From positions 124,001 to 188,000 of the forward strand of contig JAUHVL010000003.1 in NCBI GenBank assembly GCA_030425045.1: 64,000 bases of DNA, given 5' to 3'. Below, piece after piece: positions 6,744-13,362 of this stretch; position 1 is the first letter of the stretch; every line of letters starts with the position of its first letter. The notes beneath the pieces were generated by a model. The model did no database searches and was not told the DNA's origin. It saw nothing but the letters and a program-made list of their open reading frames with translations. Source of the stretch: a bacterium (lineage in GTDB: Bacteria; Bdellovibrionota; Bacteriovoracia; Bacteriovoracales; Bacteriovoracaceae). Made by a program: the position numbers and the translations under genes.

Positions 6744-8405
6744 TTACCAAAAATGATCACCGCACCACTCGATTAGGCGAAAAGCATGCTCCTCTCTATC
6801 GTGCAGCTTGGCAGTTTGAATTTCTGCTATTTCCTCATGAAGCAAGCCTACGCCTTTTAGTATTCCATACTCCCTGAGTTGTTCATCCCTTCTTCCTCCC
6901 GGAGTATAGGGGGTGCTTTTGGCAGATCTAATAATTGCTTCAGCATTGATTTTTTTGTGTAGTCTATTTGAAGGTATTGCCATGCCAGAGCTTGTAAAAA
7001 AAAGATCTTCAATAAAGTAGCGGGCAGATTTTCTCATCCTGGGCCTTGCGTTTATTGTCCTGGAAAGCACCCTTAGCTCGTTAATTAATTTTTCTCTTAC
7101 CCTTCTTGCTGTCGACCTTGTGATTCCGGTGGAAAAGCTCCATAGGGTTGCACCTTGCCTTTCAAGCACTAGATATTGTTCTCTGTAGCCGTATAGATAC
7201 CTGTAGTAAGCAGAGTGAGATTTATACTCCCTAGAGGTCGGATTTGTTTTGATTCCATGAAAAATAGCAAATTTTAAAAAATGCTTTTCCCAGTCTTTAT
7301 CATCGAATTTTGGCTCAAATCCAGTTTTGCTAGGAGCAACCAAGAAAAAGTCCTCTTTTGAGACCGGATTCTCTGGTAGGGGTTGCTCCTCTACCCCTAC
7401 ATAGCTTGCAATTTCCTCAAGTGAGTAAGCGGGGTTGCTATAAGCTTCTTCAAGCCTTCCTTTTATGTACTTAGATTGCTTGATTTTAGGTGCATAGCTA
7501 ATTTCTCCAGTGTCAGAATTTAGAACTTCTCGAAGTTTATAGTTCTGAGTTTCTGGAACTCTCATAAGTCCTGCAGTGCTCCTTGCTCTAGCCATGTCCC
7601 CTTTGAATATCTGACAAAGCTTGGTCTGAACTTCCTTGAAAAAAACACAAGCTCCTATTCTTTGAGGTGAATCATACGCTCCCTTTTCTAGAAGGTTGAT
7701 GTGCTTCACTCCCCAGTATAAATGAAGACCATTCCCCGACTTCACTATAACCTGAGGAGAGATCGCATCATTCCTTTTTAGGAGCTCCTCTACTTCTTTT
7801 TCATGGGTGTCTTTGAAATCTATATCGACATAGCAAAAATGAATTCCACTGAGTACTCGATGATCCCGCTTGGGCTTACGTGAGTTTTTGTAAGCGCTTG
7901 TTCTGACTTGCGATTTGAGAGGGATAGTCTCTATTTGCTGAATATCGTTCAAGCTCTCACCCGTGTCAGGGCAAACACCAGTAGATGAGAGAATCTGTCT
8001 TTGCTTAGTGTAGTGTTTAGTTTTAAGCGTTGTTTCTATTGGATTAGGTGAAAAAAATGCATTGTAGAGATCGAGTCCCCAGCCACGTAGTTCTAAATTA
8101 AGGTTTTCCTGCGTGAATGCATCGGGGAGTTTGTTATACTTCTTAATCTGTTTAAGCGAGAGACCACCTAATTTTTTCTTGGTAGAGCATTTAGTTTTTG
8201 AGCTGAGAAAATCATCTATTTCATGGAGTTCGATTCTAGGCTTCCAAATGTCTTTATATCCATCAGCAGGTTCTGCTGGGAGCAGGGTTACTTGAAATGG
8301 AAGCAACCCCTTTGAGGGGGTTGCCCCTAGTCTTTGAGGATGAATAGTTGTTTCAGGAAAATCTGCTGAGGTTGGATTAGTGATAATTATTTCTTTAGTT
8401 TTCAT
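6744..8405 (-). CDS. archaeo-eukaryotic-type primase (RepB/PrimPol-like replication protein)
   Basis: This 553-residue protein carries the three motifs of the AEP primase superfamily. They are YVDIDF (Asp194, Asp196), SGNGLHLYW (residues 223-231, His228), and GDMARARSTAGL with MRVPETQNYK (Asp270, Arg282, Asn288), which matches the RxPGTxNxK pattern of RepB/PrimPol-like proteins. The first 110 residues are unassigned. Residues 340-553 are basic and include an ITRSTARRVREKL segment that may bind DNA. Such enzymes prime or start replication of plasmids and phages. A strong SD (GGTGGAGGAG) precedes it, and it follows the ATPase gene by only two bases, so they form one operon. The pair is best read as the element's own replication module. 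Confidence 0.75.
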   Translation of the reverse strand: MKTKEIIITNPTSADFPETTIHPQRLGATPSKGLLPFQVTLLPAEPADGYKDIWKPRIELHEIDDFLSSKTKCSTKKKLGGLSLKQIKKYNKLPDAFTQENLNLELRGWGLDLYNAFFSPNPIETTLKTKHYTKQRQILSSTGVCPDTGESLNDIQQIETIPLKSQVRTSAYKNSRKPKRDHRVLSGIHFCYVDIDFKDTHEKEVEELLKRNDAISPQVIVKSGNGLHLYWGVKHINLLEKGAYDSPQRIGACVFFKEVQTKLCQIFKGDMARARSTAGLMRVPETQNYKLREVLNSDTGEISYAPKIKQSKYIKGRLEEAYSNPAYSLEEIASYVGVEEQPLPENPVSKEDFFLVAPSKTGFEPKFDDKDWEKHFLKFAIFHGIKTNPTSREYKSHSAYYRYLYGYREQYLVLERQGATLWSFSTGITRSTARRVREKLINELRVLSRTINARPRMRKSARYFIEDLFFTSSGMAIPSNRLHKKINAEAIIRSAKSTPYTPGGRRDEQLREYGILKGVGLLHEEIAEIQTAKLHDREEHAFRLIEWCGDHFW

Positions 8406-8407
8406 TA

Positions 8408-10240
8408 TTACTCCTCCACCTCTGTATCTATATATATACGTGAGCAGTTTTCTGCTGCATTGCTGCTTGTAAAGTCTGCCATTTGAGGAAAATTGTTATA
8501 CTCTCTTCCGTTCAATAGTCTTCCGAGCTTCTTGGGAGACCTACCAGCCCACTGCTTAAAGAAAAAGGCACTCTTTTGCTCTTCACACTGACGTAGTACA
8601 GACTGAACCCACGCTTCATCCATCTTTCTAAAATTGGTGCCACTCTCGCCTCCCACAATTACCCAATCAATGTCTTTCAGATTAAGTTCACCAAGATTTT
8701 CAAGTAGTGGTTCGCATGATAGAAATTTAACCTTGGCTGGAGTGTCACGAAGCAATTCTATTCTAGGTACTCCATATCTTTGATCTTCAACGGAGACGCC
8801 CCACCAGACATTACGAAGGCCAGCATACTCTTTAAGATCATTATTAAGTAAATAATGAAGCCTTGAGGCTCTTTTTGTAAGAACTTGGAATGTGTGTTGA
8901 GGGCAGGATTTCATTACTTCACAAACTTCCGTTAAGTATTCTACAGTGAAGCTTTCATGGAAAAAGTCTGACATACTGTTAACGAGTATCTTTTTTGGTT
9001 TCTTCCATTTTTTGGGTTGGTCTAATAAGTCTGGTGCAACCCTAGGAATAAATCCTTTCTCGTAGGCATTTCCCTTAACTCCTTCAAATCTTTTTGCAAA
9101 AGTTTCGGCATAGCAATTTTTGCATCCAGGTGAAATCTTTGAACAGCCCCTCATCGGGTTCCATGTTTCGTCGGTCCACTCAATCCCTTTCTTTGGAGTT
9201 GTTGCCTTTGGAGTAGGTGAAAACTTTAAGTCATTTAGTATCTCTTTTTTTAAATCATAAAATCTTCTCTCTTTTTTTCCTGTCCTTTCAGTAAAATGAT
9301 TAATCCACCCCTTTTTATTATAGGGAAACTCTGCCATGATCTGCCTAAGGATATCTTTACTGGAGTCCTCTTGCTGGTTAACTCTGAGTTCTTTGAGAGC
9401 TTGCGGAAGTGATTCCTTAAGGTGAATTGACCTGAGCTTCAACTGCTTGAATGTTCTAAAAGAGAACTCTAGTTCATATCTATTAGCTTCATCTCGAAGC
9501 TGGTCATAGACGAACTGGTCAGTATCATCTTTGAGAAGAAATTTTTGTATGTACTCAATTTTTTCCCTAGTAGTGAGCTCTAGTTCGATATAAAAACCAC
9601 GGTCTTTTAGAGCTAGATTTTTCTTTCCAAGAGCGGTGTTGGTTAAAATAATCACTCCTGCTTCAAAATTGTACTCTTGAGGTGTGCCCTTGCCTTTAAC
9701 TGTTGTTTCATAACAAATTCTTCTTACTTGCTTATCGTCAGTTGCTGACTTCAGTAAGTTTGCTGCTTTAAGATCATCAAAGACTGAGTCACAGTCATCG
9801 AAAACGATGACCATTCCTTTTTCTCTATACTCATATAGCTTTTCAAAAAGTCTTTTAGTGGTAATAAAACCTGAAATAATAATAAAGTTTTTTCCTTCCT
9901 CCATTTTGTGCTTTCTGAACAATTCTCTAATAATTGTTGTCTTGGCGTAGCCTGGTTTGCTTTTGACGATTGCAAAGTGATGCTTTCCTTGAATTACGAT
10001 ATTGAGCTCACTTATAAGCTTTAAATATTTTTGACCACAGTTTAGCTTTGCAACACTATTGGTAAACTCATCTATATCAAAAACTTGTTTTTGCTCTATG
10101 ATAGGCTCATTTTCGGGATAACTTTCTTCTACCTCTATGTCCTCAATAGACTGCAGTACTGCACTAAGATCTATAAGTTCTTTACTCATTGAAATGGCCG
10201 ATTTGTCTTTTGTTTGGTGATTTTCACTGCAATTCTGCAT
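8408..10240 (-). CDS. AAA+ ATPase fused to a phage Gp37/Gp68 (DUF5131) domain
   Basis: This 610-residue protein has two clear parts. Residues 60-290 are an AAA+-like ATPase: a Walker A variant (KSKPGYAKTT, Lys100), Walker B VIVFDDCD (Asp148/149), a sensor-like VIILTN and an arginine near LKDRG. Residues 300-340 resemble a winged helix, followed by a Thr/Pro/Lys linker. Residues 350-590 match the phage Gp37/Gp68 family: IEWTDETWNPMRGC, then three Cys (366, 373, 376), NCYAE, VNSMSDFFHE, FQVLTKR, WWGVSVED, LSCEPLLE, VIVGGESG and FFKQWAG. The function of that family is not established; the Cys triad could bind a metal or Fe-S cluster. The two parts are normally separate proteins. The SD is AAGGAG, and the gene leads the minus-strand operon ending in the primase. 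Confidence 0.8.
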   Translation of the reverse strand: MQNCSENHQTKDKSAISMSKELIDLSAVLQSIEDIEVEESYPENEPIIEQKQVFDIDEFTNSVAKLNCGQKYLKLISELNIVIQGKHHFAIVKSKPGYAKTTIIRELFRKHKMEEGKNFIIISGFITTKRLFEKLYEYREKGMVIVFDDCDSVFDDLKAANLLKSATDDKQVRRICYETTVKGKGTPQEYNFEAGVIILTNTALGKKNLALKDRGFYIELELTTREKIEYIQKFLLKDDTDQFVYDQLRDEANRYELEFSFRTFKQLKLRSIHLKESLPQALKELRVNQQEDSSKDILRQIMAEFPYNKKGWINHFTERTGKKERRFYDLKKEILNDLKFSPTPKATTPKKGIEWTDETWNPMRGCSKISPGCKNCYAETFAKRFEGVKGNAYEKGFIPRVAPDLLDQPKKWKKPKKILVNSMSDFFHESFTVEYLTEVCEVMKSCPQHTFQVLTKRASRLHYLLNNDLKEYAGLRNVWWGVSVEDQRYGVPRIELLRDTPAKVKFLSCEPLLENLGELNLKDIDWVIVGGESGTNFRKMDEAWVQSVLRQCEEQKSAFFFKQWAGRSPKKLGRLLNGREYNNFPQMADFTSSNAAENCSRIYIDTEVEE

Positions 10241-11448: not shown

Positions 11449-11766
11449 ATGGATTTTTCAACGGACGAAAAGACATTCAATCCTTGTGAGCAATTTGATG
11501 ATACCAGTAAGGTAAAATCAAAGACTTGTAGCTCATGTCACAAAACCCTCCTTTATGAGTTTTTTTATAAAAACAAAAGTAAGAAGGATGGTTACGAGAG
11601 TTACTGTAAATGCTGTGCTAAAAAAAGGAATAAGAAAAAGCAGCAAGAGAGAAAAGCAAAGAGGTCACAAGTATTCACCATTGCATTTAATGGTCTTCCA
11701 GATGAGAGAGTCTTTATCTCGAAGCTGCAGCTATTGATTAAGGAGATTTTGCATGGTGAAGAATAA
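11449..11766 (+). CDS. small zinc-finger-like protein next to the recombinase
   Basis: This 105-residue basic protein has a treble-clef-like arrangement of Cys pairs. CSSC (TCSSCHKTLLYEFFYKNK) comes first, and CKCC (YCKCCAKKR) follows about 25 residues later. A run of Lys/Arg (RNKKKQQERKAKR) comes next. This is the pattern of the small phage zinc-finger proteins related to HNH nucleases, but no catalytic His-Asn-His is visible, so I expect DNA binding without cleavage. It overlaps the recombinase start by 14 bases, so the two are probably co-translated. A role as a recombination directionality factor is possible but unproven. Confidence 0.6.
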   Translation: MDFSTDEKTFNPCEQFDDTSKVKSKTCSSCHKTLLYEFFYKNKSKKDGYESYCKCCAKKRNKKKQQERKAKRSQVFTIAFNGLPDERVFISKLQLLIKEILHGEE

Positions 11767-13297
11767 GGAAGTTAAAATCGGGGCTGTGTATGGGAGAGTT
11801 TCTGTTGATGAATCAGCAGAGGTCGAGCATGGCTCACTAGAGCAGCAACAACATATGGGGCGTGAGTTTGCTGAAGGTCTTTCCGCGACTACTGGTATCT
11901 CTCACATTATTAAGTACAATCTGATTGAAGAGCGTGGGGTCAGTGGTAAGAATACTAACCGCCCAAAGTATCAAGAACTACTTTCATTAGTTCAATCAAG
12001 AAGCATAGACTTCGTCATAGCTAAAGAGATTTCAAGAATCAGTCGCTCAACTAAAGACTTCTGTGACTTCTTAAATATTTGTAAAGAAAATAGCGTTTCT
12101 GTTCATATTCGAGGTATGGCTGCTGACCCTAATTCTCCTATGGGTGAGATGATATTTAAAATCTTTGCAATGATTGCTGAGTTTGAACGTCAACAAATTG
12201 TTGAGAGAACGAAGTCCTCTATTCGTTCAGCTATGAAGAACAATGCAAAAATAAATGGTGGACCAACGCCTTTAGGATTTAAAAAACATCCAGAAAGGAA
12301 GGGGGTATGGGTACCAGTAAAGAAGGAATTGAAAACTGTTGAAATGATAATGCAGAAATTCAATGAAAGACTTTCTTATGTTGAGGTTGTTAATGATTTA
12401 AAAAGTCTTGGGTTAAAGACAAAGACTGGAAAAGATTTTCGTAGCTGTTCACTAAAAAGACTTCTGACGAATAAAAAATATATTGGAAAAATGAGTGTCC
12501 CTAATGACACTGGTGAAGAGATTTGGGTTGATCTTCCCTTTGGAGAGGTTGTTAGCAAAGAATTATTTGATGAAGTTCAGGCGAATATTAAAAAAGTTGA
12601 AGGTAAAAAAGGAATTAATAAAAACAGAAGCAGAATCTATATTTTATCCAGTCTTTTGGAATATGAAGATGGCACTTCTTTTTTAGGTCAATCTGGAACA
12701 GGACGAAAGGGAGACACTCATTATTACTACTATAACAAGAAACACAAGCTATCACTTGAAGCAGTGAAGCTAGAAAAGGCAATTCTGAATTCCTTGAGAG
12801 TGTTTGAGGATAACCAAAAGATGATTAATTACGCTAATGATCTGAAGAAAGATACTTACAGCAAGCTAGACTTTGTGAATCAAGAGATTTCAAAAAGACA
12901 TAGTGAAATGAGAGCTATTGAGAAAGAAGAGACTGAAATTTTACAGAATTTAAAGTCAATGGGGATGAAGGGGTCTTCTAGGGTCATGGAGTGGTTGGAT
13001 TCTCAGCTTCTTGAGATTGAGAATAAGAAGTTTGGGATTAATGAGAGCTTAACTGTGCTTGGAAAGGAAAAAGAAAGCCTAGAGGGGGCTTTCCTGGATG
13101 CTAAGAGCCTCAAGTCTTCGCTCAAGGCGGTGTTTGATAGATTAGATGGTGCAGCTCCTGATGTTCAACGAGGAATCGCACGTCAGTTATTTAAAAAGAT
13201 TAAGGTTCGTAAGGATAATAGGATTGAGATTCTGTGGAATGTCCCTTGTGTTCCTGGCGGTCAAGGGTTTGTGAAAGAAAGTAAATGGGGTGGCTGA
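11753..13297 (+). CDS. large serine recombinase (integrase) of the element
   Basis: This 514-residue protein has the three parts of large serine recombinases. The catalytic domain (residues 8-160) has Ser17 in YGRVS, GVSGKNTNRPKYQEL, SRISRST and EFERQQIVERTKSSI. The recombinase domain (170-280) includes GGPTPLGFKKHPERKG and LLTNKKYIG. The third part normally is a zinc ribbon, but here the region around residues 296-330 (ILSSLLEYEDG, GTGRKGDTHYYYYNKK) has lost all its Cys. A long coiled coil (about 360-450) follows. It should integrate and excise the element. The last codons and stop lie within the tRNA-His 3' end, so the present C-terminus was created or adjusted by integration. Confidence 0.93.
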   Translation: MVKNKEVKIGAVYGRVSVDESAEVEHGSLEQQQHMGREFAEGLSATTGISHIIKYNLIEERGVSGKNTNRPKYQELLSLVQSRSIDFVIAKEISRISRSTKDFCDFLNICKENSVSVHIRGMAADPNSPMGEMIFKIFAMIAEFERQQIVERTKSSIRSAMKNNAKINGGPTPLGFKKHPERKGVWVPVKKELKTVEMIMQKFNERLSYVEVVNDLKSLGLKTKTGKDFRSCSLKRLLTNKKYIGKMSVPNDTGEEIWVDLPFGEVVSKELFDEVQANIKKVEGKKGINKNRSRIYILSSLLEYEDGTSFLGQSGTGRKGDTHYYYYNKKHKLSLEAVKLEKAILNSLRVFEDNQKMINYANDLKKDTYSKLDFVNQEISKRHSEMRAIEKEETEILQNLKSMGMKGSSRVMEWLDSQLLEIENKKFGINESLTVLGKEKESLEGAFLDAKSLKSSLKAVFDRLDGAAPDVQRGIARQLFKKIKVRKDNRIEILWNVPCVPGGQGFVKESKWGG

Positions 13298-13362
13298 CCG
13301 GGCTCGAACCGGCGACAACCAGAACCACAATCTGGCGCTCTACCAACTGAACTACAGCCACC
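13286..13362 (-). tRNA. tRNA-His (anticodon GTG)
   Basis: A complete 77-base cloverleaf on the minus strand. The acceptor stem GTGGCTG pairs with CAGCCAC, with the extra 5' G at 13362 opposite C, as tRNA-His requires. The D arm is AGTTCAGTTGGTAGAGC, the anticodon loop reads TTGTGGT, the T loop is GTTCGAGC, and CCA is encoded at 13286-13288. Its 3' end points into the mobile element and overlaps the recombinase stop, which marks it as the likely integration target. Bacterial tRNA-His is usually single-copy, so integration had to keep it intact, and it did. Confidence 0.96.

Follow-up and report, generated by a model that had tools for sequence, protein, structure and literature searches.

The DUF5131 (Gp37/Gp68) proteins (Pfam PF07505, PHROG 2045) are usually encoded by a gene of their own, and to our knowledge they have no known activity; no described activity or functional study of the family was found in the literature among the matches listed. 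Two PADLOC candidates, PDC-M30 and PDC-M41, pair TcmP as gene A with DUF5131 as gene B. The PDC systems are called putative, and are said to have been found through 'guilt by embedding' (PMC10855318). The T4-like nrdC.10 proteins (annotated '36.7 kDa protein'; PHROG 1250) are likewise stand-alone, and a weak AAA match of T4 nrdC.10 is already on record in PMC1524935.

Here, we describe a protein in which these two families are joined. It is encoded in the window (the whole 64,000-nt stretch of DNA analysed here); each half is a member of a described family, and the pairing was found once in the collections searched. The initial annotation had proposed that an ATPase and a Gp37/Gp68 domain share one protein, and profile matches to both halves bear this out; the coordinates, 610-residue length and residue numbers that it gave were correct. 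The strand, which it left unstated, is minus: the plus-strand translation of 8408-10240 contains 33 stops. A Shine-Dalgarno-like AAGGAG lies 7 nt 5' of the fusion-gene ATG. The gene is laid out as follows.

8408..10240, minus strand: fusion gene (610 aa), comprising an AAA+-type ATPase, a C-terminal helical segment, a linker and DUF5131
9317..10078, minus strand: ATPase domain, residues 55-308 (approximate ends), T4 nrdC.10/PHROG 1250 family (PHROG match and AAA+ fold of the model)
9938..9961, minus strand: variant Walker A, SKPGYAKT, residues 94-101 (alignments)
9794..9811, minus strand: Walker B, residues 144-149, with D148 and D149 (alignment)
9227..9316, minus strand: helical segment, residues 309-338, helix-turn-helix-like by eye, with the pattern F..xTG..RR.F (alignment; helices in both models)
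9185..9223, minus strand: linker FSPTPKATTPKKG, residues 340-352 (in-frame start codon absent)
8486..9187, minus strand: DUF5131 (Gp37/Gp68) domain, residues 352-585, predicted radical-SAM-like fold (Pfam and model)
9113..9145, minus strand: three-Cys motif CX6CX2C, formed by C366, C373 and C376 (alignment)

The C-terminal half is a full-length DUF5131 domain. Pfam placed it at residues 352-585, close to the 350-590 first proposed, with profile positions 3-243 of 243 covered and a score of 304.2 bits against a cut-off of 28.9. The same half matched PHROG 2045 and contained a weaker Pfam match to GP88 (26.3 versus 24.4 bits). The three Cys pointed out in the initial annotation are present and form the family motif CX6CX2CY, which occurred in 156 of 160 DUF5131 rows, that of the window included; the four exceptions were two rows with CX9CX2C, one with CX8CX2C and one without the first Cys. 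The domain also keeps 45 of the 47 columns with a conservation of 95% or more. It resembles its family in domain length, motif and conserved columns, and differs in being fused.

In the model of the whole protein, the DUF5131 part was mostly predicted at pLDDT 86-98. Among solved folds, six entries for spore photoproduct lyase came closest to this part (Z 12.8 to 13.2), and the best of the six superposed over 191 residues at Z 13.2 and rmsd 2.9. Rows 7-37 were radical-SAM enzymes (SuiB 11.6, viperin 11.5, lipoyl synthase and others; Z 11.6 to 8.9). From Z 8.8 downwards, TIM barrels of unrelated kinds appeared. With Foldseek, the whole model had no match at E 0.001 or better; the first match was spore photoproduct lyase, at E 0.004 to 0.009, followed by a designed TIM barrel. 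In the structural alignment, model residue 351 pairs with residue 75 of spore photoproduct lyase, and C366 presumably falls on the first cluster Cys of that enzyme, at about residue 90, by an offset that assumes no gap.

Sequence comparisons tie the half to the radical-SAM superfamily indirectly, through the NCBIfam model 'radical SAM mobile pair protein A' (TIGR04471; 76 bits versus a cut-off of 355, E 2.9e-21). The usual radical-SAM cluster motif is CX3CX2C, and this half has CX6CX2C instead. No match to Pfam Radical_SAM (PF04055) was detected in the fusion at E up to 1, nor to the spore photoproduct lyase profile at NCBIfam E up to 0.1. Against the sequences of solved structures, the whole fusion matched lactoferrin alone (E 0.16 or worse), and the DUF5131 profile gave one match, at E 0.76. 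We conclude that DUF5131 is predicted, on the strength of the model, to be a radical-SAM barrel (a partial TIM barrel) closest to the DNA-repair enzyme spore photoproduct lyase, with which it shares the predicted fold but not the cluster motif. We liken it to a radical-SAM enzyme, and do not file it as a member of the superfamily, because of its CX6CX2C motif and the absence of PF04055. The structure prediction suggested with the initial annotation accordingly modelled an AAA+ fold and a radical-SAM-like barrel; the description of Gp37/Gp68 as being of unknown function held in that we found no described activity, and can be narrowed to a predicted radical-SAM fold.

The N-terminal half matched PHROG 1250 (E 1.3e-28, residues 55-261) and stayed below the Pfam cut-offs for AAA (14.1 versus 21.2 bits) and nSTAND3 (19.8 versus 27.2 bits, E 7e-4). 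K100, D148, D149, N201 and R214 are invariant in an alignment of five family members. We infer that N201 is the sensor-1 Asn and R214 the arginine finger, and with these the half has the AAA+ residue set of Walker A Lys, Walker B Asp, sensor-1 Asn and arginine finger. Its Walker A had been singled out as unusual. The Ala before the Lys is indeed uncommon, but it is not peculiar to the fusion: it recurs in two relatives (L166 and L165), that is, in three of the nine alignment rows that reach the motif, and in this alignment GxAK is a family trait.

Searched alone (E up to 0.01), the ATPase half matched 1103 phage records and one plasmid record. Relatives include the T4-like nrdC.10 proteins, 32 IMG/VR loci and three more IMG/VR contigs. 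The T4-like proteins stop before the helical C-terminal segment (about residues 309-338), which the cellular relatives have, as do two of the three additional IMG/VR ones. The plasmid relative, on pK2D_1, adjoins RepA, an annotated replication initiator. Stand-alone relatives also occur in the phylum of the window: besides the genome of the window itself, matches were clear in six genomes (G137, G352, G219, G213, G297 and G216) and marginal in the remaining six (E 1.8e-6 or worse). In G297, the ATPase gene follows RepB-domain and ParB-domain genes and a gene that by eye resembles a serine recombinase. By eye, it lies beside type IV secretion-like genes in G137 and G352, and the neighbours among G137, G352 and G219 include restriction-like genes.

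Residues 45-342 were refolded alone because the ATPase was poorly modelled within the whole protein, and this model (alignment of 21 sequences) showed an AAA+ fold at pLDDT 82. Its best Foldseek matches were RuvB and Cdc6/Orc1, then RFC, with RuvB rows at a TM of about 0.5 and rmsd of about 8-11. VIA-align placed dynein, CbbQ and NorQ at the top of a near-tied range (Z 13.7 to 12.4) that holds RuvB at 12.7; this alignment covers RuvB up to model residue 246 only, so that the C-terminal helical segment lies outside it. The ATPase profile matched solved chains weakly and in mixture (Sec18 4e-4, dynein 7e-4, RFC 0.0015, T4-type clamp loader 0.005). The fusion matched no RuvB profile, either in Pfam (E up to 1) or in NCBIfam (E up to 0.1). 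The ATPase half is thus predicted from its model to have an AAA+ fold with a loose likeness, among AAA+ rings, to RuvB, Orc1/Cdc6 and RFC. The likeness to RuvB and Orc rests on the Foldseek ranking, and identity to RuvB and Orc1/Cdc6 is 10-18%, with a loose superposition.

The neighbourhood of the fusion gene adds the following features.

6744..8405, minus strand: next gene, 553 aa, weakly primase-like (PHROG 2478, E 0.018; relative in G016)
11753..13297, plus strand: large serine recombinase, likely the island integrase (profiles; relatives beside tRNA-His)
13286..13361, minus strand: tRNA-His, at the island's right end and likely its integration target
13278..13293, plus strand: 16-bp direct repeat; its other copy, at L226:17165, lies 35.8 kb upstream, beyond the window

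The initial annotation had placed the fusion in an operon with a primase. The pair is tight, since the genes are 2 nt apart and the end of the fusion gene contains a Shine-Dalgarno-like GGAGG that precedes the start of the 553-aa gene, but the primase label is weak. The motifs VDIDF and GNGLHLYW of the 553-aa protein resemble, as we take it, those of archaeo-eukaryotic-type primases. One relative was found in the phylum samples, in G016; it matches PHROG 2478 (4.6e-5) and, at 0.001, a family of DnaD-like loaders. The role in replication or DNA handling that had been proposed from this arrangement is plausible, although the surrounding island is also rich in defence genes.

This mobile island of the bacterial chromosome, of about 36 kb, is located at tRNA-His, where the serine recombinase gene ends. 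As a control, the 39.8 kb upstream were shuffled 60 times (order-1; plus strand only): a 16-mer match was obtained in 0/60 shuffles and a 12-mer match in 36/60. Relatives of the recombinase occurred in 11 of 356 genomes (E up to 1e-60). Homologous recombinases were at tRNA-His, with different cargo, in three of six stretches examined (G044, G057 and G012), and no family ATPase or relative of the fusion was seen in the six, one of which is only 4.9 kb long. The cargo of the island comprises an MzaC-like helicase, a type IIG-like enzyme, a C5 DNA methylase, a radical-SAM protein, an AAA_5 gene followed by an McrBC-like gene, an ASCH-like protein (E 0.011, under the cut-off) and, by eye, a single-stranded DNA-binding protein (SSB)-like gene (L225).

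Several side observations concern the island itself. A PA0069-type radical-SAM protein, an ASCH-like small protein and an Eco57I-type methylase of about 1080 aa co-occur on it, upstream of the window (L225:12688-14480, minus strand, and L225:6008-9241, plus strand). Near the stand-alone ATPase of G219 (L187:1704-6835) there is also a PA0069-type radical-SAM gene, with ASCH-like and approximately 1100-aa genes that by eye resemble those of the island, and the set may be a conserved cassette. Relatives of three further island genes, small resolvase-like (1188-1808), helix-turn-helix-like (2483-2815) and endonuclease VII-like (11449-11766), lie close to other serine recombinases in the phylum. 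The left repeat copy is preceded by sequence that by eye resembles a recombinase gene 3' end (L226:17135-17180), as if it were the leftover of an older island.

Gp37/Gp68 proteins had been described as stand-alone. This is accurate in that they normally have their own gene, but the gene often lies within 300 bp of TcmP: it did so for 51 of 82 cellular ORFs, a count that takes in many close relatives, versus 0 of 78 IMG/VR ORFs. A tree thinned at 65% identity, from which nine phylum rows were exempt, contained 14 cellular rows with TcmP and 21 without it. The window's DUF5131 sits in this quick tree on an end branch of 1.68, so its placement is unsure; its starred set of 17 rows consists of nine with TcmP, four cellular rows without, three viral rows and the window. 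Within the phylum, TcmP was adjacent in seven of the 11 other DUF5131 genomes, a count from which the partial DUF5131 matches in G101 and G096 were left out, and no TcmP was found within the approximately 1.5 kb examined around DUF5131 in G211 and G283. No TcmP was found in the window or in its genome (TIGR04474, E up to 0.001).

We dropped the reading that viral DUF5131 genes never accompany TcmP because three named phages have TcmP next door: the Gordonia phages Jablanski and Fairfaxidum (TIGR04474) and Synechococcus phage Ssp-JY39 (purpose-built profile). In Jablanski and Fairfaxidum (L242 and L247), DUF5131 lies between the integrase and the immunity repressor, convergent with a TcmP that is annotated as a methyltransferase, a location that would suit a phage-carried defence or moron gene. 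In Mycobacterium phage Bipper (L243:3992-5373), DUF5131 overlaps a gene annotated as an ASCH (spelt ACSH) domain protein; this domain was not confirmed among the Pfam matches at E up to 1. One long TcmP (L245:4770-6086) carries a C-terminal GMT-like winged helix-turn-helix (PF22560, 1.7e-9), and therefore this partner may bring its own DNA-binding module.

The reading that we prefer, to which we tentatively assign a probability of roughly 0.4, is that the fusion serves DNA maintenance, its ATPase half bringing a radical-SAM enzyme to the DNA of the element. The ATPase half would presumably bind island DNA and assemble, at the origin or fork, into a ring or clamp driven by ATP. The radical-SAM half, thereby brought to island DNA, would repair or chemically modify bases with SAM and a [4Fe-4S] cluster. 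The product of the neighbouring weakly primase-like gene would aid replication, and the fusion would stand in for TcmP, which often accompanies DUF5131 in cellular genomes. Arguing for this are the profile matches, the predicted radical-SAM fold and conserved columns of DUF5131, the plasmid-maintenance settings of two ATPase relatives (pK2D_1 and G297), and RuvB, Cdc6/Orc1 and RFC as the best Foldseek matches of the ATPase. The coupling to the weakly primase-like gene, the SSB-like gene on the same island and the lack of a TcmP match in the genome of the window point the same way. Against it we counted the Foldseek E of 0.004 at best, the CX6CX2C motif and missing PF04055, the loose RuvB/Orc likeness, the mixed profile matches and the weak primase label. 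Also counted against it were the ATPase relatives beside type IV secretion-like or restriction-like genes, the defence-rich island and the solitary fusion, which leaves the linkage of the halves without the backing of conservation.

The main rival of this DNA-maintenance reading is that the fusion is a sensor and effector of defence, in which the ATPase would be a switch that senses phage, DUF5131 the effector, and the ATPase the replacement for the TcmP of a PDC-M30/M41-like system. The window's DUF5131 matches the B genes of PDC-M30 and PDC-M41 at 3e-99 and 6.6e-99, but it has the ATPase fused to it and no TcmP. According to PMC10855318, 32 of 100 P. aeruginosa strains have a predicted PDC-M30, and 68.8% of these 32 were phage resistant; the putative standing of the PDC systems in that source tempers this point. 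The MzaC-like, McrBC-like and type IIG-like genes of the island and the sub-threshold nSTAND3 match would also suit defence. Yet the stand-alone ATPase relatives L161 and L163 had no PADLOC match (E up to 0.01), T4-like phages and a plasmid carry members of the ATPase family, and the fusion gene is coupled to the weakly primase-like gene. We regard a defence role as possible, if somewhat unlikely.

A further explanation is that two independently working proteins were merged in frame by chance, their coupling being co-expression only. The Pro/Thr/Lys composition of the linker would fit such a merger, as would the single example found. The whole-fusion query matched 1256 phage and 350 plasmid records through either half, and none of the 1256 or the 350 records reached at least 80% query coverage. 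Locus scans, which covered genome and viral loci matching six short peptide patterns, gave 80 genome loci (kept from 82), whose matches start no earlier than residue 333 and so lie in the DUF5131 half and the stretch leading up to it. In 76 of 77 viral loci, the match begins at residue 315 or later; the other, L158, was reported from residue 287. No ORF of these 157 DUF5131 loci, L158 included, matched the ATPase profile. Whole-genome searches used a 368-genome sample of the phylum of the window, in which DUF5131 was present in 12 genomes and the ATPase search matched 13, with both only in the genome of the window. There, the DUF5131 open frame measures 620 residues from stop to stop, versus 103-298 in the other 11. 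The phage, plasmid, genome, viral and phylum searches thus produced no second example when relatives and other elements were checked for the fusion, as the initial annotation had proposed. Ten other long DUF5131 open frames (L003, L136, L087, L147, L156, L153, L135, L024, L104 and L071) were rejected as further fusions, with no other domain above the Pfam cut-off; by eye, their upstream parts resemble read-through in G+C-rich DNA 5' of the usual start. A chance merger is made quite improbable by the conserved residues kept in both halves and by the lack, among the 157 DUF5131 loci and the 368-genome sample, of any genome with the ATPase and DUF5131 genes side by side.

The fusion reads as genuine because the DUF5131 frame has no start codon in residues 319-362, where in-frame ATG, GTG and TTG are all absent. 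The five start codons in that segment are all out of frame, and both frames that hold them are interrupted there by stops, so that the sequence makes a frameshift joining two separate genes, raised earlier as a possible refutation, unlikely. An assembly or frameshift artefact is a highly improbable explanation, given this lack of a usable start for a separate DUF5131 gene and the fact that the fusion is the sole DUF5131 match in its genome, even though the single example comes from an assembly of 91 contigs.

The fusion combines known families in a pairing found nowhere else in the searched collections, and we infer its function. DUF5131 is widespread in phages and bacteria, and the fusion hints at its role. 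The predicted lyase-like fold and the natural AAA+ fusion provide two testable handles, radical-SAM chemistry and a DNA substrate. Both matter for the PDC-M30/M41 defence candidates, which await validation, and for nrdC.10, an unexplained gene of T4. A bolder proposal, which we hold to be rather doubtful, is that DUF5131, as a radical-SAM enzyme, has DNA as its target and is here loaded onto replicating element DNA by an AAA+ motor. If true, the fusion would identify DNA at the fork as the substrate of a large family found in phages and bacteria, and the TcmP-DUF5131 candidate defence pair would be recast as a DNA-modifying or DNA-damaging system.
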